Source: an uncultured Ignavibacteria bacterium (GTDB lineage: Bacteria; Bacteroidota; Ignavibacteria; Ch128b). Taken from it: 32,052 bases of DNA. The position numbers and the translations under genes were made by a program. Within the stretch, counting starts at the first letter, position 1. Each line of letters begins with the position of its first letter. Of the stretch, positions 2,716 through 22,404 are shown one piece after another. Location: positions 1 through 32,052 of the forward strand of contig CALDZP010000082.1 of NCBI GenBank assembly GCA_937944105.1, read 5' to 3'. The notes beneath the pieces are model-generated. The model saw nothing but the letters and a program-made list of their open reading frames with translations. It was not told the origin of the DNA and did not search any database.

Positions 2716-3804
2716 TCATTTCAAATATTTTAATAATGCATCAATTTCTTCTTTTGATAATTCATCACTTGTTTTGAAAGTTTTAAGCGTCACATCAACT
2801 TGTTGAATTAAAGATTTTTTCTCGTAGCGTGGTGAGAAAACAGAACCATCAAGCATATACAATCTGTTTTTCTTTTGATCCAGGAATGTGTAATTAACAA
2901 ATGGTCCTCCCATGCTATAATCATTCATTCTCCATAATCCCTGAGTAAAAATTGAATATTTCCCGTTGAAATTAACTTCATTTTGATTTAGGTATTCTTT
3001 TGCAATTTCAACATAAGCTTTATCGTCAGTAGTTCTTAAAAATTTTTGAGTGATTCTATTTCTGATTACAATCACACTATCTTTGTTTAACCATCTTGAA
3101 TCAGCAGAATCTATCCAGTGGATAAAAATCCATCTTTCCATATCCGAATTAGGTGATCGTCTCAACCAGACAAAATTACCTTCTTTATTGTCTATAGCTT
3201 CAAAGAAATCTGCTTGAATGTAAAGTTTCCAGCCATAATTCTTTAGATATTTAGCTTCAAGATCTTTTTTTTCATAAGTTGGATTATAGAGATTTTTCAT
3301 CACTCTTTCATCAGAAGCAGACTGGAAAAAGTAGAGTAGGTTATCTTTGTCCTTAAAAGCTTTAATTCTCAGCTCTTCAATTGTGTTTGAAATTAGGATT
3401 ACAAGAACTTGATTTTTAGCCCACACATCTTTTTTCTTAATAACAAATTCTTTCCCTTCTTTGATAAGATTGAGAGCAGCACTATCGATAATTGATTTTA
3501 CATATCTTGTTACTTCGTTATCGTGATTAAGTGTTGTAACAATCAGAATATTTTTGCGATTCTGATATTTTTTGAATTGTGAAAAATCAATTCTATTAAG
3601 AACAAAAAGTTGTTCAGGTTGTGGTGTTATAATTTCTTTTTCAAAAATGGCAGAGAGAAAATCGTAATATTCATTCCAGTAAGTTGAATCAGCAACGACA
3701 ATAATTTCGTCTTCTTTTCCAAATGCTGGTTTAAGATTTTTCTGGCAACCAATATTTATGAAGAAATAAATTGTTAATGGAATTAAAAGATAGATTTTTT
3801 TCAT
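2716..3804 (-). CDS. DUF4837-like lipoprotein
   Basis: This is a predicted lipoprotein of 362 residues. I place the start at the ATG at 3804 (MKKIYLLIPL). It gives a normal signal peptide ending at Cys20 (INIGC) and lies 4 bases after the upstream stop, with GGGTAAG just before it. An in-frame ATG at 3828 would add eight residues and overlap the previous gene. The lipobox is loose, with Asn at -3. The mature part begins with GKEDEIIVVAD followed by a Trp-rich stretch, the pattern I associate with DUF4837 proteins of Bacteroidota, whose function is not known. It is the last gene of the run and is followed by a strong terminator. The family call is from memory of the pattern, not a profile search. 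Confidence 0.8.
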   Translation of the reverse strand: MKKIYLLIPLTIYFFINIGCQKNLKPAFGKEDEIIVVADSTYWNEYYDFLSAIFEKEIITPQPEQLFVLNRIDFSQFKKYQNRKNILIVTTLNHDNEVTRYVKSIIDSAALNLIKEGKEFVIKKKDVWAKNQVLVILISNTIEELRIKAFKDKDNLLYFFQSASDERVMKNLYNPTYEKKDLEAKYLKNYGWKLYIQADFFEAIDNKEGNFVWLRRSPNSDMERWIFIHWIDSADSRWLNKDSVIVIRNRITQKFLRTTDDKAYVEIAKEYLNQNEVNFNGKYSIFTQGLWRMNDYSMGGPFVNYTFLDQKKNRLYMLDGSVFSPRYEKKSLIQQVDVTLKTFKTSDELSKEEIDALLKYLK

Positions 3805-3808
3805 AATC

Positions 3809-4525
3809 TTACCCGAAATGATAAACATTTATTTGTGGTAATAGTAGCGCATAAAGTATCCACATAACAGTTCCGATTGTAATTGGTATTGATAAATTAT
3901 CGTCTATTTCAAACGACATACTCTCGGCAATTGTTCCAAAAAAAGCAGCAATGATTCCAATCACATACTCAAGAAAATGATGTTCAACTTTTGGAGTGAA
4001 GAAAATCACAATTAAAGCAGAAACAAAAAATGCAGCTGATCCTTCTAAACTCTTGGCGAAGAATTTTCTTTTACCAAATTTTCTACCAATTAAAGCTGAA
4101 GATATATCGGAAATTATGAGGATTGAAAATGCGGTTACAAAAATTAGTTTCGGAAAGACGATAACACAAAAGAGTGCGGAAAGTAAAACGTTAGTTGCAC
4201 CATTTAATCTTTTTTTTGAATCATCTTTTTCTTTTTTCCGGAGAAGAAATCCAAATATCTTATAAAACCAATCGGCAACCTGCGGATTATAATAACGAAT
4301 GATATCAACAACTAAAAATGAAAATGTCAAAGGAATTAAAATTGTTAACGCTAATTCTTTCTCGATATAATAATAAATAATTGGAATTGAGAGAGAATTC
4401 AAATGTATTAGTTTTCGGATTACCTCATATTTATAATCAATTGTAGCTGCTTCGTGAATCACTGAATCATCTACCTTCGGGATTTCCACTACTCTGAGTT
4501 TGCGAAGATTCTGCTTCACCATCAT
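3809..4525 (-). CDS. Dolichol/phytol kinase-like (SEC59/DGK1/VTE5 family) integral membrane protein
   Basis: A 238-residue polytopic membrane protein. The family hallmarks visible are RKLIHL at residues 37-42, the [10 protein letters not shown] segment at 109-118, [13 protein letters not shown] at 140-152 followed by [10 protein letters not shown] at 159-168, and the late acidic segment [10 protein letters not shown] at 206-215. Related enzymes phosphorylate polyprenols, phytol or diacylglycerol, often with CTP; the substrate here is unknown. With the ATG at 4525 the gene overlaps ftsH by 59 bases. AAAGGG lies just upstream and is better spaced for the second ATG at 4522. An alternative GTG at 4462, just past the ftsH stop, would begin at VIHEAATID and fits the usual short N-terminus. 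The start is therefore uncertain; the family call is solid. Confidence 0.82.
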
Positions 4526-6527
4526 TTTTCCCTTTACGGATTTCCATTAGTTTTTTTACATGTTCTGGTAATTCTTCTTGATGATTATTCTTTTTAACTG
4601 GAGGAAGTTCTTCTCCTCTAATTATTTTATCAATTTCTTCATTGTCAAGAATTTCTCTTTCCAGTAAATTCTTTGAAAGTCTATGAAGAATATCAATATT
4701 ATCTCGAAGAATTTTTTCAGCTCTTGCCATGCAAGAATTCACTATATTCTGAACCTCTTCGTCAATTAATTGAGCTGTTTTTTCACTAACTTCTTTATGA
4801 CGTGTAATTTCTCTTCCAAGGAAAAGTTCTTCTTCTTTGCTACCATATGCAATGGGACCTAATTTTTCACTCATTCCCCATTCACAAACCATTTTTCTTG
4901 CAATTTGAGTAACACGTTCAATGTCATTACCAGCGCCAGTGGTCAACTCATTAAATACAATTAATTCAGCAGCTCGTCCGCCAAGAGCATAAGCCATCAT
5001 TGCAAGTAGATACGATTTAGAGTATGAATGTTTTTCGTCAATCGGTAAAAATGTTGTAACTCCTAAGGCTCGACCTCTTGGTATAATTGTTACTTTATGA
5101 ACTGGATCAGCTTCAGGAATCATTTTGGCAACAAGGACATGTCCACTTTCGTGATAAGCTGTCATTTCTTTTTCTTTCTCTGATATAATTAAACTTTTTC
5201 TTTCCATTCCCATCATAACTTTATCTTTTGCATCTTCAAAATCGTCCATATCAACATATTTTTTGTTCTTTCGAGCTGCAATTAAGGTGGCTTCATTTAC
5301 AAGATTTGCAAGATCTGCGCCCGAAAGTCCTGGAGTTCCTTTTGCAATTACAGCAAGATCAACATCAGGAGCTAAAGGAATTTTTCTTGTGTGAACTTTT
5401 AAAATTCCTTCTCTACCTTTTACATCAGGTCGATCTACAACAACCTGACGATCAAATCTTCCTGGTCTTAACAAGGCTGGATCTAAAATATCCGGTCTAT
5501 TGGTTGCAGCAATAATTATAATTCCATTATTTGGTTCGAATCCATCCATCTCAATTAACAATTGATTTAGAGTTTGTTCACGTTCATCATGACCACCGCC
5601 GAGTCCTGCTCCTCTTTGACGACCGACTGCATCAATTTCGTCAATGAATATTATGCAAGGTGCGTATTTTTTCCCTTGTTCAAATAAATCACGAACACGG
5701 CTTGCACCCACACCGACAAACATTTCAACAAATTCTGCCCCAGAAATAGATAAAAATGGAACGCCAGCTTCACCAGCAACTGCTCGAGCGAGTAAAGTTT
5801 TTCCAGTTCCAGGAGGACCTAATAATAAAACTCCACGAGGAATTCTTGCACCGAGTCTTTGAAACTTGGAAGGTTCTTTCAAAAATTCAATTATCTCTTG
5901 AAGTTCTTGTTTGGCTTCATCGCAACCAGCAACATCTTTGAAAGTAACTTTTGGAAGGTTTTCTGTAAATATTCTTACTCTACTTTTACCGAAATTAAAT
6001 ATTCCTTTTGTTCCGCCAGCTCCACCTTGCATTCGTCTCATGAAAAATATCCATAAACCAAAAATTAGAACCCATGGTAACAAAGTCATCAATGCTGTCC
6101 ACCAAGCTGAATCTTTTTCTTCGAAAGTAAAGTTAATGTTTTTTTCATTCCATAGTTTTATGTTTTCAGGTGAACCAGCTTCTGGCAGAAATACAACAAA
6201 TTTTTTTGTTTTAATTTTTTTACCTGGAGCAACTTGAAGTAATTCTTCGTTTTTTAATCTTCCATGAAAATAGTAATTATTGATTTCTGATTTTTTAATG
6301 ACGGCACTTTCGATTTTGTTTTCATTTAAGAGTCTCTGGTATTCATTAAAAGTAATTTCAATTTCAGCCATATCGCCTGCACGAAACATTTGCATTACAA
6401 TAAGAGCGGCAACAATTACACCACCCCAGCCAAAGACTAATCTTAAAATTTTCGACCACTCGAAATTTTCGTCACCTTTTCCTTTTTTGTTTCTGTTATT
6501 CTGATTATTTGGATTTCTTTCTTCCAT
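4467..6527 (-). CDS. ftsH: ATP-dependent zinc metalloprotease FtsH
   Basis: FtsH is a membrane-anchored hexameric AAA+ protease that degrades misfolded and regulatory membrane and cytoplasmic proteins. The 686 residues show the full family order. A charged Asn-rich N-terminus leads into membrane helix 1 (about 30-48), an extracytoplasmic domain and membrane helix 2 (about 146-163). The AAA module has Walker A GPPGTGKT (237-244), Walker B IIFIDE (292-297) and the second region of homology ending LLRPGRFDR (352-360). The zinc site HESGH is at 459-463 and the third ligand region is [12 protein letters not shown]. The C-terminal tail is hydrophilic. GGAG precedes the ATG at a normal distance. It follows hpt by 11 bases; tilS-hpt-ftsH is a gene order conserved in many bacteria. 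Confidence 0.98.
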
Positions 6528-6538
6528 AAATTCTCCAA

Positions 6539-7099
6539 TTAACTATTTTTTAATGCATATATTGATCGCAAGTTTCTATACTTCTGACTATGATCGAGTC
6601 CGTATCCAATTACAAATCTGTTTGGAATTTGAAAACCGATATAGTCGAGTTTAATATCGTATTTTGTTGCTTCTTTTTTATGAAGCAGAGTAACAATTTT
6701 AATGCTATTAGGATTTTGAGATTGAATCAATCCTTTCATATAGACTATTGAGAGTCCAGTATCTACTATATCTTCAACAATTATGATATCACGATTTTTA
6801 ATATCCGCATTAAGCTCTTTTATTAATTTCACATTACCACTTGAAATTTTTGCATCGCCATAACTTGATAACTTTAAGAAATCTACTTCACAATTTATGG
6901 AAATGTTTCGAATCAAATCAGCGAAAAAAATTACAGAACCATTTAAAACGCCAATAAAGATTGGAATTCGTCCCTCATAATCTTTGCTGATTATTTCACC
7001 AAGCTCAGCGACTCTTTTCTGAATTGTTTCTTCATCAATTAAAATTTCAAATATTTCACCATTAACAGAAATTTCTTTTGCGTTATATTTCGAAATCAT
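6539..7099 (-). CDS. hpt: Hypoxanthine phosphoribosyltransferase
   Basis: This enzyme of purine salvage joins hypoxanthine (and usually guanine) to PRPP, forming IMP or GMP. The 186-residue length is typical. The PRPP-binding motif [10 protein letters not shown] is at residues 108-117. The flexible-loop region [10 protein letters not shown] and the C-terminal purine-contact region [18 protein letters not shown] are all present. The gene starts inside the end of tilS (17-base overlap) and ends 11 bases before ftsH, so it is translationally coupled in the same run. Which purine base is preferred cannot be told from sequence. Confidence 0.96.
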
Positions 7100-8483
7100 A
7101 ATTTATTCTCGCTTTAATCACCTTCTTTGTCTCTTTTGTAACTTTGTATTTTTCTGATAGTCGTACTCCTACTACCCAGATGATCTCGTTCCCATCGCAA
7201 AGGACTAAAATTTGTTTTTTAAAGATTGAAGGTATTTTAGCATCGCTTAATAAGTCACTAACTTTTTTTGAATATTTCATTCCTATTGGAATAATTTTAT
7301 CACCGGGTTTCCAGTTTCTTAATATTAATTTGTGTTTAATTTTATCAGCATCAAAAAATTCGACCATCGGATTGTCAGAAATTTTTGCTTCTTTGACAGG
7401 TGCGATACTCAATTTAAATTCAAAATAACTTCCATAATATTTCTGAAGTTTTGTATCATAAGTTACCGATATATTTACCTCTTCAAATTCAGGTTCATAA
7501 AGAATTAGAATTGTATTGCTTTCACGAATTGCAAAAACTTTTTCGTTGATTTGCAGAGTTGTTCCTTTATCTTGTTTTACAAGATTTACTAACTCTTTAG
7601 TTTTTTCAAAGCTAAGCTGAAGATTAAATTGAAGATCAACTTTTTTACGAATTAAATCCATCATCAGGTAATTTTTGTAATCGATATTTTCTTCAATTTT
7701 AATTCTGAGTACTTTTTCAGTTTTTTTGGTTATAAATAACCTTTCAAACTTTAGTTCTTCAGCTTGAATGTATCTTTCAAGTAGATTTAAAAGTTGAGAA
7801 GTAATTGAAAATGTCTGAAAGAGATTAGGATTAATTTCTTGTAACAATGGAATTACTTTATTTCTAATGAAATTTCTTGTAAAGTTTTCTTGTTTATTTG
7901 TTGCATCAACTCTATAAGGAATCTTTTCTGACTTTAAAAATTCGATAATTTCTTCTTTTGTAATTCCTAAAAGAGGTCTAATTATATTATCTCGTTTAAT
8001 TGGAATGCCTCGTAGTCCAGAAACGCCACTTCCTCGAACGAAATTAAAAATCATAGTTTCAGCATTATCGTTGAGAGTATGTCCCGTAGCTATTTTATTT
8101 GCTTTGAATTTCGCGGCAGCTTCTGTAAAGAATTTGTATCTTTCATTTCTGGCAACTTCTTCGATGCTTTTTTTTGTTTCCTGTGCAATTTTATTTATCT
8201 CTCTACTCTCGGTTATAAATTGAACTTTATTTTCTTTACAAAAATTTTTTACAAATTCTTCATCATCATCAGATTCTTTTCCTCTTAATTTGTGATTTAA
8301 ATGAGCTGCATAAACTTTCAGATTAAAAATTTTTTGTATCGTAAGAAGCAAAACCAATAAAAATGTTGAATCGGGTCCTCCACTAAAACCAACTACCACA
8401 GAATCCCCATTTTTTAACAACTCATTTTCTCTGATAAATTTCAGGGACTTTTGTATAGCTGATGATGTAATTCTTTTCTTCAT
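7083..8483 (-). CDS. tilS: tRNA(Ile)-lysidine synthetase
   Basis: TilS attaches lysine to C34 of the AUA-reading isoleucine tRNA, changing its decoding and charging identity. The 466-residue protein has the N-type ATP pyrophosphatase PP-loop SGGPDS at 34-39. The family segments AAHLNHKLRG, TGHTLNDNAET and GLRGIP follow in order. The C-terminal TilS domain is visible from about residue 385 (LRNWKPGDKIIPIG, then KVSDLLSDAKIP). The start is supported by AGGT four bases before the ATG, a site formed by the last codons of the preceding gene, whose stop is one base away. It is essential in most bacteria and nothing suggests it is broken. Confidence 0.97.
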   Translation of the reverse strand: MKKRITSSAIQKSLKFIRENELLKNGDSVVVGFSGGPDSTFLLVLLLTIQKIFNLKVYAAHLNHKLRGKESDDDEEFVKNFCKENKVQFITESREINKIAQETKKSIEEVARNERYKFFTEAAAKFKANKIATGHTLNDNAETMIFNFVRGSGVSGLRGIPIKRDNIIRPLLGITKEEIIEFLKSEKIPYRVDATNKQENFTRNFIRNKVIPLLQEINPNLFQTFSITSQLLNLLERYIQAEELKFERLFITKKTEKVLRIKIEENIDYKNYLMMDLIRKKVDLQFNLQLSFEKTKELVNLVKQDKGTTLQINEKVFAIRESNTILILYEPEFEEVNISVTYDTKLQKYYGSYFEFKLSIAPVKEAKISDNPMVEFFDADKIKHKLILRNWKPGDKIIPIGMKYSKKVSDLLSDAKIPSIFKKQILVLCDGNEIIWVVGVRLSEKYKVTKETKKVIKARINYDFEI

Positions 8484-8484
8484 A

Positions 8485-9393
8485 TTAACCTATCATAAAA
8501 TCGTAAATAAGTTTAGAAATTTTTCCAATGGTTTCTTTTCCCTTATCCGAATTTTCAAGTCCTCTGGAAAGAATCACTAAGACATATTTTCTTCCATCAG
8601 GTAGAAATACAATACCACTATCATGTTCAACTCCAGATATACTCCCGGTCTTATGAGCTACTTTTACATTATATGGTAAATACCTGGGAATTTTATCATT
8701 AAATTTTTGCTCTGAAAGAATTTTTATCATTTCTTCGCAGGCTTTTTCATTTATAAGTTTTTTTTGTGCAATTAATTCGTAGAGTTTCATTAAATCTGAT
8801 GCGTTTACAGTATTGTTTAATCCAAGATTAAAAGCTTTAGAATCCTCCACTCCTCGTATAACATTAATATTCTTTAAGTCATAATATCGCATTGTCTTTG
8901 TTATATTACTTGCGCCCACAAGTTCAATCAATAAATTTGTAGCAAGATTACTACTAACGGTTATCATATCATAAACTAAATCATAAATTTTTCTTTTTTT
9001 ACCAATTTGTGAGTAGATTTTATCATCGCCATCATCATTTACATTAAGAGAATACAATGAGCTATCAACAATACTGGTAAATTGATTTTTCACAATAATG
9101 GAATCATCTATGGAGAATTTGCCTTCATAATATTGTTTAAAGACTTCAACCATCACGGGGGTTTTCATAGTGCTGGCAGCATGGAAAATTACTTCACCAT
9201 TAATAATTATTTCATTTGAATTGTTGTCAACATCACGGAATGCAACTGCAAAAGTTCCTTTGCATTTTTTTATTTCTTCTAGAATTTGATTTTTCAATGC
9301 ATCAATTTTGGCGTTTGAAATTTTTTGTTGCAAATAACCCTCTTGATGAAAAATAGAAATAAATAAAAAAAAAGTAATAAGCGATAACTTCAT
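8485..9393 (-). CDS. Exported class A beta-lactamase-fold serine hydrolase
   Basis: A 302-residue protein with an N-terminal signal peptide (hydrophobic residues 3-15), so probably periplasmic. The active-site set of the penicillin-recognising serine hydrolases is present: STMK at 74-77 (nucleophile Ser74, Lys77), SSN at 147-149 in place of the usual SDN, and KTGS at 248-251. Glu183 in RGVED is a plausible deacylation glutamate of the omega loop. The next residues (SNLATNLLIELVG) also match class A enzymes. It could be a true beta-lactamase or a peptidoglycan or ester hydrolase of the same fold. It sits 8 bases after greA and 1 base before tilS, an unusual place for an acquired resistance gene, which suggests a resident role. 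No Shine-Dalgarno is seen, so coupling to greA is likely. Confidence 0.88.
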   Translation of the reverse strand: MKLSLITFFLFISIFHQEGYLQQKISNAKIDALKNQILEEIKKCKGTFAVAFRDVDNNSNEIIINGEVIFHAASTMKTPVMVEVFKQYYEGKFSIDDSIIVKNQFTSIVDSSLYSLNVNDDGDDKIYSQIGKKRKIYDLVYDMITVSSNLATNLLIELVGASNITKTMRYYDLKNINVIRGVEDSKAFNLGLNNTVNASDLMKLYELIAQKKLINEKACEEMIKILSEQKFNDKIPRYLPYNVKVAHKTGSISGVEHDSGIVFLPDGRKYVLVILSRGLENSDKGKETIGKISKLIYDFMIG

Positions 9394-9401
9394 ATAAAAT
9401 T

Positions 9402-9875
9402 TTATCTTGAAATTTCTAAAATTTCGAGTTCAATTACTCCTGCAGGAACATTAACCTTAACAATGTCCCCAACTTTTTTGCTGAGTAATTGCCTGCCTAT
9501 CGGGCTATTGATGGACATTTTTCCATTTTCAAAATCAGCTTCCTCAGGAGAAACAAGATGATAGATTTGAATTTTATTTGTTTTGAGATTTTTTACTTTT
9601 ACTTTTGTTAAAACACGAACTTCGTCGGTAGAGATAGAGTTAGTATCAATAACTTTTGCCCGGGCAAGCATATTTTCTAATTTTGCAATCCTTAGCTCGA
9701 GTAGTCCCTGTTCTTCTTTTGCTGCATCATATTCTGCATTTTCAGAAAGATCACCGTGGGCTCTTGCATCGGCTATTTTTTGTGCAATTTCTTTTCTACC
9801 TCGGATTTTTAAATCATTTAATTCTTTTTCGAGTTCCAGAAGCCTTTCTCTTGTCATATAAATGTAATCGTTCAT
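9402..9875 (-). CDS. greA: Transcription elongation factor GreA
   Basis: GreA enters the secondary channel of RNA polymerase and stimulates cleavage of backtracked transcripts. The 157-residue length is typical. The N-terminal coiled coil carries the conserved tip, with Asp42 and Glu45 in GDLSEN followed by AEYDAAKEEQ. The C-terminal FKBP-like domain has SPIGRQLLSKKVGD. A good Shine-Dalgarno (AAGAGG) lies six bases before the ATG. It is the first gene of the seven-gene minus-strand run, and a strong terminator hairpin lies about 50 bases upstream of its start codon, suggesting attenuation of the whole run. Confidence 0.97.
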   Translation of the reverse strand: MNDYIYMTRERLLELEKELNDLKIRGRKEIAQKIADARAHGDLSENAEYDAAKEEQGLLELRIAKLENMLARAKVIDTNSISTDEVRVLTKVKVKNLKTNKIQIYHLVSPEEADFENGKMSINSPIGRQLLSKKVGDIVKVNVPAGVIELEILEISR

Positions 9876-9923
9876 AAAAAACCTCTTAAATTTTAGTTAC
9901 TATTAGCTAAATCAGGTTATAAA

Positions 9924-9960
9924 AAAATTAGCCACTTCCGAATGGGAAATGGCTAATTTT
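9924..9960 (-). terminator. Strong intrinsic terminator / attenuator hairpin in front of greA
   Basis: On the minus strand the RNA forms a 16-bp continuous stem with a 5-base loop, followed at once by seven U residues. One pair is a G-U wobble in minus-strand RNA but a C-A mismatch in plus-strand RNA, so the minus orientation is the selected one. The hairpin starts directly after a promoter-like pair of boxes and ends about 50 bases before the greA start. No gene ends close upstream (the nearest stop is 367 bases away), which favours a leader attenuator over a simple gene-end terminator. Confidence 0.85.
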
Positions 9961-9965
9961 CGATA

Positions 9966-9997
9966 CAAACTTAGTGAATGAGAAATTCTTTAGCAAA
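9966..9997 (-). promoter_or_regulatory. Candidate Bacteroidota-type promoter of the greA run
   Basis: Read on the minus strand, TTTG (9997-9994) and TAAGTTTG (9973-9966) are separated by 20 bases. This matches the -33 TTTG and -7 TAnnTTTG pattern known for Bacteroides and Flavobacterium housekeeping promoters. The predicted start falls near 9960, the first base of the hairpin. That Ignavibacteria use the same consensus is an assumption. Confidence 0.5.
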
Positions 9998-16329: not shown

Positions 16330-16550
16330 CAATGCTTCTCCGATTTATTTAAGGATTTCAAAATTTTAAATGATAAATTTTTCATTCAAATTTGAAACTT
16401 TGTCATTTAATCTAAAAATTTTCGAATACCTATTTAAATATTTTTTGTGGTAAAAGATTTATTTTTCTTGATCAACTTTTTTAATGGTTATAGATGGTTA
16501 ATAAAAAATACATTGAATGACCCTGAGATTTCCAATATAATAACTAAAAA

Positions 16551-16579
16551 GAAAAGGTGTCCTTTCGGGACACCTTTTC
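16551..16579 (-). terminator. Intrinsic terminator after the T9SS adhesin gene
   Basis: A 12-bp perfect stem (GAAAAGGTGTCC with its complement) has a five-base loop and lies 35 bases past the stop at 16615. On the minus strand it is followed by TTTTTAGTT. The AT-rich ends of the stem could let it work in both directions, but no plus-strand gene precedes it. Confidence 0.88.
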
Positions 16580-16614
16580 TTATTTACCTTGCACGATTAT
16601 TGATTTTGATTGAA

Positions 16615-19600
16615 CTATTTCTGCAAGATCATCTTGCGAGTAGCAGTGTAAGATTCTGTTTGAAGTTTATAGATGTATACACCTGAGCTTAAGTTTGAAG
16701 CATCGAATCTTACAGAATAATTACCTGGGTTTTTCATTTCGTTGACCAATGTAGCAACTTCCTGACCAAGAATGTTATATACTTTCAACGTGACGAATTC
16801 TGGATTAACAATTGAGAATTCAATCATAGTTGAAGGATTAAATGGATTAGGATAGTTTTGAGTTAACTTATATTCAACTGGTACTTCGCTTTCAGATGAT
16901 TTCTTACCGCTATTCTTGCTGACAAATGCAATGTTCTTAATCTCTACTTCATATTGTGACATATTCATATTATCACGCTTCTCGTAAACCAAAGATATTT
17001 TTCTTATTCTTGATGGATCAAGTTCTGTTGAGATTCCTTCCCTTTGTTTGAATTCAGAGAATGGAATTACATATGTTCTCTCTTTATTATCGAGGACTAA
17101 TTTCTTCATATGGAAGTTAAAGTTTTGTACACCGTCCTGCTCTATCCTTAACCAGACAACTCCGTTACCACTAATTGTAAACATAATTCCCTCATAATCA
17201 CTCAAGTCTACTGGTGCGGTGTTTGCAGTTAATGATCTAAATATTGTAACCCAATCTTCAAGTTTACCTTGCATCTTAACTCCACCAGAAAGAACCAGTG
17301 AACCCTCGGGATAATCATTTACATTTTGAACTGGATAAGATCTTGTATCAAAGTAGTCAACTGTAGATTTATTCCCGTTTAAGTAAGTATATGCACCACC
17401 GCTTACAAATATTTCGTCTTTGAATCCGTTTGAAGATGTGATGTAAACATTTGCATCACTAATTATTCCAGTGCTTATAGCTATTGAATTCAATCCAGGA
17501 TTAAGTGAATATGTGTAAGCCTTTTCGATTCTATCGCCACCTTGAGTTGCTCTGGATTTTACAAGTACAGTTATGTTTTCTGAAGATTTGCTTTCATTCT
17601 TCAACACTACTTCAACTTTACCATTGTGTAGGTATTTACCTTTCACAGCGTATGTCATTGCTATTGGTAACTGAGCTCTGTTCAAGAAATCAACTTCACC
17701 TTTGAGCTTAAATTGTTCTATTATTTGATTAACCAAGAAGATGGCGTTCTTGAAACTGCTACCCCAAACCTGGAAGTTATAGATATTGGTTGTACCTTGT
17801 GGAACTTGATATTCTTCAATTAACCATCTAGAATCAACCAAATATTTATTACCTATTTCGTATACACTGAAGTGAATTTCATAATCGAGTACACCTTCTT
17901 CAACCTTATTTATAATTGAAGCAAAATAGTAGTTTTCACCAATTTTAATTTGAGTCAATGAATTCAGTTCAGCGTTTACTAATCTATCGCATATTGCTTT
18001 GGTATGTTCATAGATATAAGGTGGATTTGTAGTAGTTGCAAAGACTCCAGCAACTCTGGTTTCACCTTTTGCGAGTTTCAGTTTATAATCAACTGCATAA
18101 GCTGAAGTTGCATTTGATATTCCAAGTATATCAAACGGAGTTGCTTCTTGAGCAATTGAACCCATAGGACCATAATTAGGAACTAATTCAAATAATCCAA
18201 GAGAAGCTGTGAATGGAGTTTTTGGATTTCTGAGAATTTTTGTTGTCATACCATATTCAATCTTTGTGATTCTTCTGAGCAGTAGGTCTGCAAGATTAGC
18301 ATTTGATTCAACACCTGCATCAAATCCACTGCCAGTAGAATCTGGTGGTAATGGACATGTTAGGAAGCCATAGTTGCAATCGCATGCAAAGTTATAGTTG
18401 ATCATCGATACTACATCATTCAATATTTGAATTGAGAATGGAGTAGTGCCACCACCTAAAGCAATATTAGCAAGTAACAGAACTTCAGAAACTTTATAAT
18501 CTTTCATCGGACCAGATGCAACTACAAGATTTGCTAATTTAGTTGTAGCTGTAGAACCAAGTAAACCAGCTTCGTTAAATGCAACGTTTAATGTAAGAGC
18601 GGCAACATTACCTGCAAATGAACCAGCTGAAGTTGTGGTTGGATTAACATAGTTTGTGTTAAATTGACCTAAAGTACCAATTTGTGGTAAGAAGTTACGA
18701 ACAGCTATGGCATTTGTGAAGATAGCTGAGTACGGAGATCCTTGATTTCCAATTTCCATACCTGACGGAAATACTGTAGCAAAGTTATTTTCAAGTAATG
18801 ATTTGGCTGGTTCAAGGCACCACTGATCTTGAGTATAAGTCTTATACAAAGTTAGATTGCAAGGTTCAGGAGCTGGTTTAAGTTTGTCTCCGAATTTTAT
18901 GTTGCATACATCTTGATTTGTTACAAAAATATTATAAGAATTTGGTGTTGTAGATATATATCCATAAGGATCAATTTCCTGGACGTGATATTCACCTTCA
19001 GGAACATTCAAGAATTCAAATTTTCCAAGAGCATTGGTAATAGTTTGAGCTATTAAATTACCAGAAGTTCCCCATAATTTAATTACAACGTTCTCTATAC
19101 CTACTTCGCCGTTATCAAGTAAACCATTACCATTTGCATCATTAAATACCATGCCGCAAACTTTATAACCAACAACACATTCTTTCAAACCAGCATCAAT
19201 ACTCAAGTTATTTTCACCAGCGGCAAGCGTGAAGCAAACCGTTGTACCTGTGATAGGATCAGCATCTGAATCTAACTCATCATCTGAACCAGCATCTTTA
19301 ATTGTAAACAGATATCCTGTCGGAGCCTGGAATTTAACATAATAGTTTCCTGGTAATAGATCCGTAAACTTATAATATCCACTTGAGTTTGTTGTTGTAA
19401 CACTGATTAAATTATCATTGCAATCATATAATTTCACAGTTATACCGGATAAACCAGATTCATTATTATCTTGAATACCATTCCCGTTTGCATCGAACCA
19501 AACGAAATTACCGATTGAACCTTTTAATTTATAAATTCCAGCATCCCATTTAGTTGAGTTACTATCGCAATTTGGTGGTTCAATTGGGAAGCATGTGGTC

Positions 19601-22392
19601 ATACCGGTTAATGGATCAACATCAGAATCAAGTAAATCATTCATTCCAGCATCTTTTAATGTGAATGCATATCCTGAGGGTAATACAAAACGTAGTTTAT
19701 AAACGCCCTGGGTTATGTTTGTAAAGTGGTAGTAACCATTTTCATCTGTTTGAGTTGTAGATAGAACCTGTCCATCGCAATCAAGTAACTTAACAGTTAC
19801 ATAACCAACCCCACTTTCACCATAGTCCTGTATACCATTTTTGTTCAAATCTTCCCAAACTTTATCTCCAATTACACAAGTTGGTGCTGGAGGTGTTGGA
19901 TACAATCCAATGTCCCATTTTACATCATTCGCACCACAATCTGGAGGATTTAAGTTTATACAAATCGATTCACCGTTTAATGGATCAACATCTGAATCGA
20001 GTAAGTCATTATTTCCTTGGTCCTTCGGTGAAATAGAGAATCCATCGGGCACGATAACTTTAATCTTATAAGTCCCTGCAACTAAACTGTCAAATGAGTA
20101 ATAACCATTTGCATTTGTAAATGCAGAATCTAGTAAGTTATTGTTGCAGTCGAATAGTTTAATCTTAATATTTTGTATTCCGTTTTCATCTGGATCCTGT
20201 ATACCATTTGCGTTTACATCAAACCAAACCCTATCACCAATTGAACAAACTGGTGGTGGTGGGATTAAGTGTATTCCGGCATCTAAATCAACATAATTTT
20301 CACCAAAGTTAATAGAAATACATTCACTCATTCCGGTTGAGGGATTAATATCAGAATCTTTTGCTTCATCTGAACCTTGATTCATCAAACTAAATTCATA
20401 TCCATTGGGTAAGACAACAGATATTTTGTAATAACCTGCTAATAAGTTTTCAAAGTGATAGTATCCCATTGAGTCTGTAACTGTTTGTGCGAGTAAGTTA
20501 CCGTTGCAATCATAGAGTTTTACAAGCACACCAGCCACTCCTGCTTCATCGGGATCTTGAATCCCATTCATATTGTAGTCGAACCATATGAAATCTCCAA
20601 TTGAACCAAAGTTATAGACAAGTCCTGCGTCTAAAGAAAGATTAGTTTCGCCATTATTTAATGTAAAGCATGTAGTTGAACCATTTAAGGGATCAGCGTC
20701 AGAATCATATTCATCATTTGGACCGGAATCTTTGAATGTAAATTTTAAAGAATCAGGTGGATAAAATTTTACATAATAATTTCCGGGTATAACATTATTA
20801 AAGAAATACAGACCTGAGGAATTGGTAAATGTGGAATCAATTAAATGATCATTACAGTCAAATAATTTAACCAAAACATTTGAAATTCCTGGTTCACCAT
20901 TGTCCTGGATTCCGTTTCCATTTAAATCAAACCAAACAAAATCACCAATTTTTCCAAAAACATTTTCAGGACAATCAAGAAATCCATTGTTGACATAACC
21001 ATTGTCAAAATTCTCATTTATTGCTTTTGCTGCATCATTTATTTGTGAATATGTAAAACCATTTAGTGAACCGCCACCCAGGACTTGTTCAGCAAAAGCT
21101 AAAAAGCTATTTACTGTCCAGCCTGTAAACGGTCCTGATGTTATAACTAAATTACCTAGTGGAAAAGGATTTGAACCCAGGTAACCGGCTTGATTAAAGT
21201 ATACGTTTAGTTTCAAAGCAACGATTTGCCCGGCTAAAACTCCAGCACTTGTTGATAACGGATCAACATAATTTTGTGTCAGAGCTCCAGGTGTCCCACC
21301 TTGAGGAAGGAAATTCATAACGGCAAATGCATTACTCAGAGTTAATGTGTAATTACCACCAACTACCAATCCAGATGGAAAAACAGATGAAAAGTACATG
21401 TCTCTTATTTTTCCAGGAACGCTAACGGAGGGACTGCCCCAACCACCTTGAGTATAAGTTACATAACCTGTAAGATCACAGGATTGGGGTATGTACCAAC
21501 TAACAGTATCCTGAACTTGTTTTGTATCAATAGCTGGAGTTGCCAGAACAAGTTTTTGTTTGCCATCAGGATTTGTCTTATGAACATAACGAGTTCCTTG
21601 TGGAATTGTTAAAACAGAAGTTGCGGAAATTATTGATGTACCAACTCCCGAATAATTTAAGAATACCGGTCCGCCTTTTCCATCGCTATCGGTTATAACA
21701 GAGTCAACACTTAAATTTCCAAGTGAGGCAGAAAGATAAATTACTGCATTTTGAACTGGATTCCCGTTTATATCAAATGCAAAAACATAAAATTCTACAG
21801 GTGTATTAACAGGATAAGATTGTGATGTTTTTACAATAAGCAGTGTATTTATTGGTTTTACATTATTGTGATTTGCTATAGCATCTGCTATTATTTGTAA
21901 AGCTCTTGTTTTAACTGTATTGTTGTTTGTAATAGTATTTACATCTACACTATCACTGAAATGCCAGATTGCCATCTGAATAGCAGCAGCTTCATAATTT
22001 ATGTTTGTGAGTTGTCCAGGATATGAAGTCTTGTATGGATAATAGTTGTTTAATATATAAGTAATTTCAGAAGATGTTGTCCCTTCATCCCAATAATCTT
22101 TGTTAAATTCAAGCAAATGCTGAATATCGATACAATAAAATTTTGTAGGTTGGGAGTTTAGTGTCCCATTAAAAGTCCCTGCAAAATAAGTAACAGTTGA
22201 ATCAAGATATGGATCTGTGAATTTAATACTGGTACCTTCTGCTGTACCGGTAATCTTTGCAATGCTTGTATAATCCTGAGGTTTATCAGGAAATTTTTTT
22301 TGAGCAAATAAATTAATATTTAATATGATTGAAATTAGTAAAGCAAAAACAACTATTCTTTTGCTTGTTAATTTTGTATTAACCTGTTTCAT
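16615..22392 (-). CDS. Giant T9SS-secreted adhesin with thioester-like domain and SdrD-B-like repeats
   Basis: The product is a 1925-residue surface protein. The start is the ATG at 22392, because the Shine-Dalgarno GAGG (22399-22402) lies inside the extra codons of an ATG at 22404. Domains in order: signal peptide (1-30); a thioester-domain-like region with Cys87 in FYCID and Gln139 in IQMAIW; an Ig-like invasin-type domain (about 183-295); an unnamed module A1 (305-474); five SdrD-B-like repeats starting near 482, 598, 718, 840 and 959, each opening with a calcium-loop pattern such as DLNGNGIQDNGE; a divergent sixth repeat (about 1074-1170); module A2 (1178-1346); a long C-terminal region with a possible carbohydrate-binding sandwich (about 1690-1835); and a type A sorting domain ending QTESYTATRKMILQK. 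It probably mediates attachment to surfaces or other cells after T9SS export. Confidence 0.9.
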   Translation of the reverse strand: MKQVNTKLTSKRIVVFALLISIILNINLFAQKKFPDKPQDYTSIAKITGTAEGTSIKFTDPYLDSTVTYFAGTFNGTLNSQPTKFYCIDIQHLLEFNKDYWDEGTTSSEITYILNNYYPYKTSYPGQLTNINYEAAAIQMAIWHFSDSVDVNTITNNNTVKTRALQIIADAIANHNNVKPINTLLIVKTSQSYPVNTPVEFYVFAFDINGNPVQNAVIYLSASLGNLSVDSVITDSDGKGGPVFLNYSGVGTSIISATSVLTIPQGTRYVHKTNPDGKQKLVLATPAIDTKQVQDTVSWYIPQSCDLTGYVTYTQGGWGSPSVSVPGKIRDMYFSSVFPSGLVVGGNYTLTLSNAFAVMNFLPQGGTPGALTQNYVDPLSTSAGVLAGQIVALKLNVYFNQAGYLGSNPFPLGNLVITSGPFTGWTVNSFLAFAEQVLGGGSLNGFTYSQINDAAKAINENFDNGYVNNGFLDCPENVFGKIGDFVWFDLNGNGIQDNGEPGISNVLVKLFDCNDHLIDSTFTNSSGLYFFNNVIPGNYYVKFYPPDSLKFTFKDSGPNDEYDSDADPLNGSTTCFTLNNGETNLSLDAGLVYNFGSIGDFIWFDYNMNGIQDPDEAGVAGVLVKLYDCNGNLLAQTVTDSMGYYHFENLLAGYYKISVVLPNGYEFSLMNQGSDEAKDSDINPSTGMSECISINFGENYVDLDAGIHLIPPPPVCSIGDRVWFDVNANGIQDPDENGIQNIKIKLFDCNNNLLDSAFTNANGYYSFDSLVAGTYKIKVIVPDGFSISPKDQGNNDLLDSDVDPLNGESICINLNPPDCGANDVKWDIGLYPTPPAPTCVIGDKVWEDLNKNGIQDYGESGVGYVTVKLLDCDGQVLSTTQTDENGYYHFTNITQGVYKLRFVLPSGYAFTLKDAGMNDLLDSDVDPLTGMTTCFPIEPPNCDSNSTKWDAGIYKLKGSIGNFVWFDANGNGIQDNNESGLSGITVKLYDCNDNLISVTTTNSSGYYKFTDLLPGNYYVKFQAPTGYLFTIKDAGSDDELDSDADPITGTTVCFTLAAGENNLSIDAGLKECVVGYKVCGMVFNDANGNGLLDNGEVGIENVVIKLWGTSGNLIAQTITNALGKFEFLNVPEGEYHVQEIDPYGYISTTPNSYNIFVTNQDVCNIKFGDKLKPAPEPCNLTLYKTYTQDQWCLEPAKSLLENNFATVFPSGMEIGNQGSPYSAIFTNAIAVRNFLPQIGTLGQFNTNYVNPTTTSAGSFAGNVAALTLNVAFNEAGLLGSTATTKLANLVVASGPMKDYKVSEVLLLANIALGGGTTPFSIQILNDVVSMINYNFACDCNYGFLTCPLPPDSTGSGFDAGVESNANLADLLLRRITKIEYGMTTKILRNPKTPFTASLGLFELVPNYGPMGSIAQEATPFDILGISNATSAYAVDYKLKLAKGETRVAGVFATTTNPPYIYEHTKAICDRLVNAELNSLTQIKIGENYYFASIINKVEEGVLDYEIHFSVYEIGNKYLVDSRWLIEEYQVPQGTTNIYNFQVWGSSFKNAIFLVNQIIEQFKLKGEVDFLNRAQLPIAMTYAVKGKYLHNGKVEVVLKNESKSSENITVLVKSRATQGGDRIEKAYTYSLNPGLNSIAISTGIISDANVYITSSNGFKDEIFVSGGAYTYLNGNKSTVDYFDTRSYPVQNVNDYPEGSLVLSGGVKMQGKLEDWVTIFRSLTANTAPVDLSDYEGIMFTISGNGVVWLRIEQDGVQNFNFHMKKLVLDNKERTYVIPFSEFKQREGISTELDPSRIRKISLVYEKRDNMNMSQYEVEIKNIAFVSKNSGKKSSESEVPVEYKLTQNYPNPFNPSTMIEFSIVNPEFVTLKVYNILGQEVATLVNEMKNPGNYSVRFDASNLSSGVYIYKLQTESYTATRKMILQK

Positions 22393-22398
22393 TTCCAG

Positions 22399-22402
22399 CC
22401 TC
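22399..22402 (-). promoter_or_regulatory. Ribosome-binding site that decides the adhesin start
   Basis: GAGG on the minus strand lies six bases before the ATG at 22392. It overlaps the codons of an upstream in-frame ATG at 22404, which is therefore unlikely to be used. The downstream start gives a standard signal peptide. Confidence 0.7.
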
Positions 22403-22404
22403 AT

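Follow-up and report, generated by a model that had tools for sequence, protein, structure and literature searches.

The closest described system is the greA leader of Escherichia coli, in which a terminator stops about two thirds of the transcripts and gives rise to the 37–59-nt GraL RNAs (PMC6829880). GraL drops about 4-fold when GreA is lacking, an excess of GreA is repressive, and the protein must be catalytically active; full autoregulation needs positions +1 to +18 ahead of the hairpin as well as the hairpin sequence itself, and in vitro experiments did not reproduce the feedback, which seems to require a further factor (PMC6829880). Terminators 5′ of greA were also found by Naville and Gautheret in 2010, who surveyed 302 genomes and ranked greA/rnk seventh among gene families for 5′ terminators, with cases in Proteobacteria, Bacilli and Clostridia (PMC2965389). 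The main text of that study makes no mention of the Bacteroidota, although its supplements may list them, and we found no literature report of greA leaders or attenuators in this phylum, other than what supplementary lists could contain.

The window analysed here, a stretch of 32,052 nt from an uncultured Ignavibacteria bacterium, has on its minus strand the order TTTG, N20, TAAGTTTG, TATCG (5 nt), hairpin, U7 and greA, as read directly from the sequence (Table 1). The arms of the hairpin (9960–9945 and 9939–9924) form 16 bp, including one U-G pair, around a 5-nt loop (9944–9940); T7 overlaps the stem, and 45 nt separate the U-tract from the greA ATG at 9875. The stem, loop and U-tract are those described by the initial annotation, which had counted six bases between the promoter box and the stem where there are 5 nt and was otherwise right within a base. 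The leader RNA folds with −25 kcal/mol (z = −4.6; no sequence among 200 shuffles reached this stability), and the U-G pair becomes an A-C mismatch in the RNA of the opposite strand. A covariance model built from leaders of the class gives 37.5 bits to the minus strand and 33.4 bits to the other, in agreement with the earlier remark that the wobble pair works only in minus-strand RNA. As a positional definition of a leader attenuator we took a sense-strand hairpin with a U-tract, at most 300 nt from greA and closer to it than to the upstream gene; the element of the window, 48 nt from greA and 366 nt from the upstream ORF, falls within it. A generic terminator scan of the window did not list the greA-leader hairpin, probably because the full-length stem consumes part of the T-run. 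In Flavobacterium the TAnnTTTG box occupies positions −12 to −5 (PMC9723704), which puts the predicted start of transcription at 9961 and the hairpin at +2 to +38, so that some 41 nt would have been transcribed where the U-tract ends. A terminated RNA of about 41 nt is therefore predicted from the positions of promoter and hairpin, close to the ~40 nt originally proposed.

Table 1. Features of the greA region in the window, with the evidence on which each rests
Feature	Position	Strand	Evidence
−33 promoter element TTTG	9994..9997	−	sequence; exact N20 spacing also in G001, G002 and G004; TTG equivalent in G003 and G005
−7 promoter element TAAGTTTG	9966..9973	−	fits Bacteroidota consensus TAnnTTTG; identical in six family members
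predicted transcription start (+1)	9961	−	inferred from Flavobacterium box position
terminator hairpin	9924..9960	−	37 nt; inverted repeat; kept in 6/6 family members; covariation across families
U-tract (U7)	9921..9927	−	sequence; kept in 6/6 family members; its first four U are paired to the 5′ A run
greA, 157 aa	9402..9875	−	Pfam GreA_GreB_N 2e-27, GreA_GreB 4e-24
six further genes: beta-lactamase-like, tilS, hpt, ftsH, 238-aa protein, DUF4837	2716..9393	−	gaps of at most 11 nt or overlaps

The resemblance to GraL and its Rfam family RF01769 is one of plan: an intrinsic terminator in the greA 5′ UTR with a promoter immediately ahead of it, a short predicted product within the size range of GraL, a hairpin followed by seven U, and wobble pairs in the stem. 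The differences are equally clear. Here the hairpin starts at about +2, whereas in E. coli it starts at +19 from P1 and about +7 from P2 (the latter obtained by subtraction from product sizes), so that, given the predicted start, the +1 to +18 sequence ahead of the E. coli hairpin is essentially missing; the promoter is of the Bacteroidota type and the stem sequence is unrelated. A search with RF01769 (“Enterobacteria greA leader”) gave no hit at E ≤ 1 in the window and none in 20 greA loci, while the E. coli leader scored 127.5 bits in the same search, and the whole of Rfam yielded no credible match in the window and the greA loci. The element also shares a terminator 5′ of greA with the attenuators of Naville and Gautheret but differs from them in that a clear antiterminator, which lay outside their search definition, accompanies each of those cases (PMC2965389) and none is found in the window. 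Terminators before greA are, then, already known, and what sets this one apart is its Bacteroidota promoter, its hairpin at about +2 and its having no antiterminator.

Conservation of the arrangement was followed in 61 genomes, two of the same genus, three more of the same family and the rest of the same class, with start codons and the orientation of upstream genes assigned by simple ORF rules; greA was found in 58 of them. The initial annotation had suggested looking for the hairpin in the greA leaders of close relatives, and promoter, hairpin and U-run adjoin greA in all five same-family genomes (six of six with the window). The family block consists of TTTG-N20-TAAGTTTG, in which two members have TTG at the corresponding position, then 5–7 nt to a stem AGCCAUUUCC/GGAAGUGGCU, which is lengthened by A/U pairs, closed by a loop of 4–8 nt and followed by a U-run. 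The stem sequence is strictly conserved within the family (one change in G004) and the loop varies. On the evidence of its sequence, the block is not due to chance, and the earlier idea of a promoter firing directly into a terminator gains support from both sequence and conservation.

A hairpin with a U-tract would also be expected if the element ended the upstream transcription unit as an ordinary 3′ terminator or insulated greA from read-in, and in the window the upstream neighbours, an 86-aa ORF and then pgk, are indeed co-directional with greA. The neighbours change among the relatives, however: G001 has pgk and G004 another co-directional gene, while G002 has a divergent tRNA-Leu and G003 and G005 have divergent genes. 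Since the block stays constant while the upstream neighbours differ or invert, it belongs to greA and not to them. The same conclusion follows on a larger scale, as 67 of the 73 leaders whose upstream gene is divergent retain the hairpin, which removes the reading as a 3′ terminator. Unlike generic Rho-independent 3′ terminators, moreover, the greA hairpin lies directly behind greA's own conserved promoter, 20–60 nt before the gene start, and it vanishes when greA enters an upstream operon. Among leaders of the class that have at least 90 nt available or no upstream gene close by, hairpin and U-tract are present in 49 of 49 (a few of them read by eye, having been missed by the tail rule of the scan), and all 11 class leaders without the hairpin have greA at most 50 nt from the upstream gene, mostly directly behind it. 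Hairpin and free-standing leader are thus gained and lost together, as expected of an attenuator acting on greA's own promoter, and the loss of the element in several lineages where greA joined an operon means that it is dispensable there. A role as 3′ terminator or insulator is largely refuted by these observations and we consider it very improbable.

Other families of the class have a stem that differs yet can be aligned, with an outer NGCCA....UGGCN kept and the inner half changed. In a 22-row alignment 90.9% of the cells are paired, both sides have changed in 43 cells, against 15.7 ± 3.8 in shuffles, and covariation amounts to 0.476, against 0.178 ± 0.024 in shuffles (0/500) and at most 0.148 in slid controls; an ungapped set of 16 distinct stem arms agrees with this result. 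We picked the rows for a GCC(A/G)...(C/T)GGC hairpin and imposed the structure on them, so that control (b) and the outer core pairs are biased towards it; the evidence for covariation is in the inner stem pairs. This pattern bears on the possibility that the near-perfect inverted repeat, lying directly behind the promoter and across the start site, is a DNA operator bound by a repressor. An operator would not be expected to let the spacing of its arms range over 4–8 nt within a family, to retain a non-Watson-Crick pair, or to exchange its stem sequence from family to family and yet keep the pairing and the U-tract, and we regard it as disfavoured to the point of being scarcely credible. The U-tract is only weak in some leaders of family f4. 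In the two f3 leaders L019 and L032 (genomes G053 and G035), two tandem terminator-like hairpins, AGCCACCATCC..GGATGATGGCT and then CCCTTCAG..CTGAGGGG, precede greA, each with its own U-run.

Beyond the class, we counted terminator-like hairpins 15–150 nt from the greA start in 72 leaders of the class, 39 from elsewhere in the phylum and 80 from named Bacteroidota, at cut-offs of −8 and −12 kcal/mol. The hairpin is found in 78%, 92% and 89% of them, respectively, at the first cut-off (background 19–24%) and in 65%, 79% and 68% at the second (background 4–15%), the background being 316 genes from 20 stretches of 20 kb in genomes of the class and thus a loose match for the phylum and named sets. 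Where the gap is at least 80 nt, 10% of background genes have a terminator-like hairpin at −12 kcal/mol. Conservation before greA orthologues therefore exceeds background, as is expected of an attenuator. When no U requirement is made, the best hairpin has a median of −17.1 kcal/mol in greA leaders and −8.8 kcal/mol in the background, and at least five U out of eight follow it in 61% and 10%, respectively. Of 71 greA leaders from named Bacteroidota, 70% have a perfect TAnnTTTG ahead of the hairpin, whereas shuffling yields it in 5%, and the median distance of the −7 box from the hairpin is 6–10 nt. Judged from these leaders, the hairpin is a phylum-wide feature of Bacteroidota greA; the independent-looking parallel to GraL that the initial annotation had drawn stands as a parallel, but not as an isolated case in a distant phylum.

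These numbers also help to weigh a role in mRNA stability. The 5′ stem-loop of ompA is an example of a hairpin that guards an mRNA from decay, and since the hairpin of the window starts at about +2, the 5′ end of a read-through greA mRNA would be paired and could be shielded in the same way, with no need for termination. A pure stabiliser needs no U-tract, however, and U-runs are far commoner behind greA hairpins than in the background; in many Bacteroidia, besides, the hairpin starts only 10–30 nt past the box. Stabilisation in place of termination is accordingly improbable, although it could be an added effect besides termination.

The specificity of the element is architectural and does not lie in a unique motif. 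We rejected the hairpin as a greA-specific RNA family, since the class covariance model also matches generic terminators in other genomes, of the form AAAAAGCC..GGCTTTTT, a result that gives some support to the reading as an ordinary 3′ terminator; in the window's own genome a single other site was found (E = 0.011). The mid-stem wobble or mismatch was likewise dismissed as a special feature, with 0.095 G-U per pair in the class and 0.076 in 3′ terminators of the same clade. The greA-leader stems of Bacteroidia (e.g., L103, L107, L109 and L128) are richer in G-U than both of these sets, at 0.146 per pair, a comparison across clades on which we base no claim, and their antisense RNA is on average 5 kcal/mol less stable than the sense RNA. 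Elsewhere in the window, the interval from a 1929-aa ORF (16615–22404, minus strand) to the gene that follows holds a perfect 14–15-bp terminator-like hairpin with a U-run (16549–16581), apparently an ordinary 3′ terminator.

Taken together, it is highly probable that the hairpin is a real terminator or attenuator of greA, and the best reading, to which we give a probability of about 0.7, is that of a transcription attenuator close to the promoter, operating in the manner of E. coli GraL. RNA polymerase would start at about 9961 and immediately transcribe a strong hairpin and a U-tract; a large share of the transcripts would end as the short hairpin RNA, and the remainder would extend into greA and the genes that follow. 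What the sequence shows is the promoter with its hairpin and U-tract, their conservation and covariation, and their tie to a free-standing greA; that the element terminates in vivo and yields the short RNA, and that it depends on GreA and by which route, is what we infer from this arrangement. In the six family leaders no antiterminator was found, as there is no RNA upstream of the hairpin and none folds downstream (the hairpin forms with a probability of ~1.0 in all six). A GCTAAT downstream of the hairpin in the window, considered as a mimic of the 3′ arm, was rejected, being absent in G002 and others, with the hairpin probability again at ~1. Because the hairpin begins at about +2 and leaves no upstream RNA for an antiterminator, read-through would be set by the polymerase and its factors. 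By analogy with E. coli the likeliest controller is GreA itself, more GreA leading to more termination and less greA mRNA, and we would place such feedback at a little under even odds. One conceivable kinetic route leads through backtracking: GreA would stimulate cleavage of the backtracked RNA, and the polymerase would then cross the U-tract repeatedly, with more chances to terminate.

A leader without an antiterminator or a sensor region could also be an unregulated partial terminator, which would either hold read-through from a strong promoter at a fixed low level or make a trans-acting RNA of about 41 nt, with no sensing of GreA. GraL does act in trans in E. coli (PMC6829880), and the strict conservation of the stem inside the family, with a variable loop, could be read in this way. 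The turnover of the stem sequence between families, with structure and U-tract persisting, fits termination better than a base-pairing sRNA, and the persistence of the terminator before one gene family across phyla suggests gene-specific control; we think an unregulated element unlikely, though it is the alternative to be taken most seriously. Returning to a GraL-like attenuator, its most specific form would be a minimal GreA sensor in Bacteroidota, a terminator made from the first nucleotides of the RNA without aptamer, leader peptide or antiterminator, whose efficiency GreA would set directly through its action on the young elongation complex. We put this forward tentatively, as a proposal more doubtful than feedback as such. 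If it were true, then, taken with GraL, feedback by GreA via a terminator close to the promoter would be ancient or would have evolved repeatedly across bacteria. The Bacteroidota leader, being just a hairpin and a U-tract at about +2, reduces the unsolved problem of the E. coli feedback to its core, and dozens of natural variants with different stems are on offer. This apparently uncatalogued cis-element of gut and environmental Bacteroidota would set the level of GreA, which rescues RNA polymerase and is a global elongation and fidelity factor.

In the window, the element would also set the level of a gene run that includes ftsH and tilS. The gene order of the seven-gene run to which the initial annotation had extended this control was borne out, and the control itself is supported as a prediction: the seven genes from greA to DUF4837 are presumably co-transcribed, and the run would be throttled along with greA unless internal promoters exist. 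Such throttling is not general, since in G003 and G005 about 1.1 kb lies between greA and the beta-lactamase-like gene. The greA of the window is the only PF03449 match in its genome. Second, C-terminal-only GreA-like genes occur in three f4 genomes (L060–L062, in G018, G036 and G045), and no comparable promoter-terminator unit was found in the leaders of these paralogues. Finally, greA, ftsH and a penicillin-binding or beta-lactamase-like gene are neighbours both in the window (4467–9875) and in E. coli: the order is greA, beta-lactamase-like, tilS, hpt, ftsH in the former and dacB, greA, yhbY, rlmE, ftsH in the latter (NC_000913.3, 3324500–3330500; L233).
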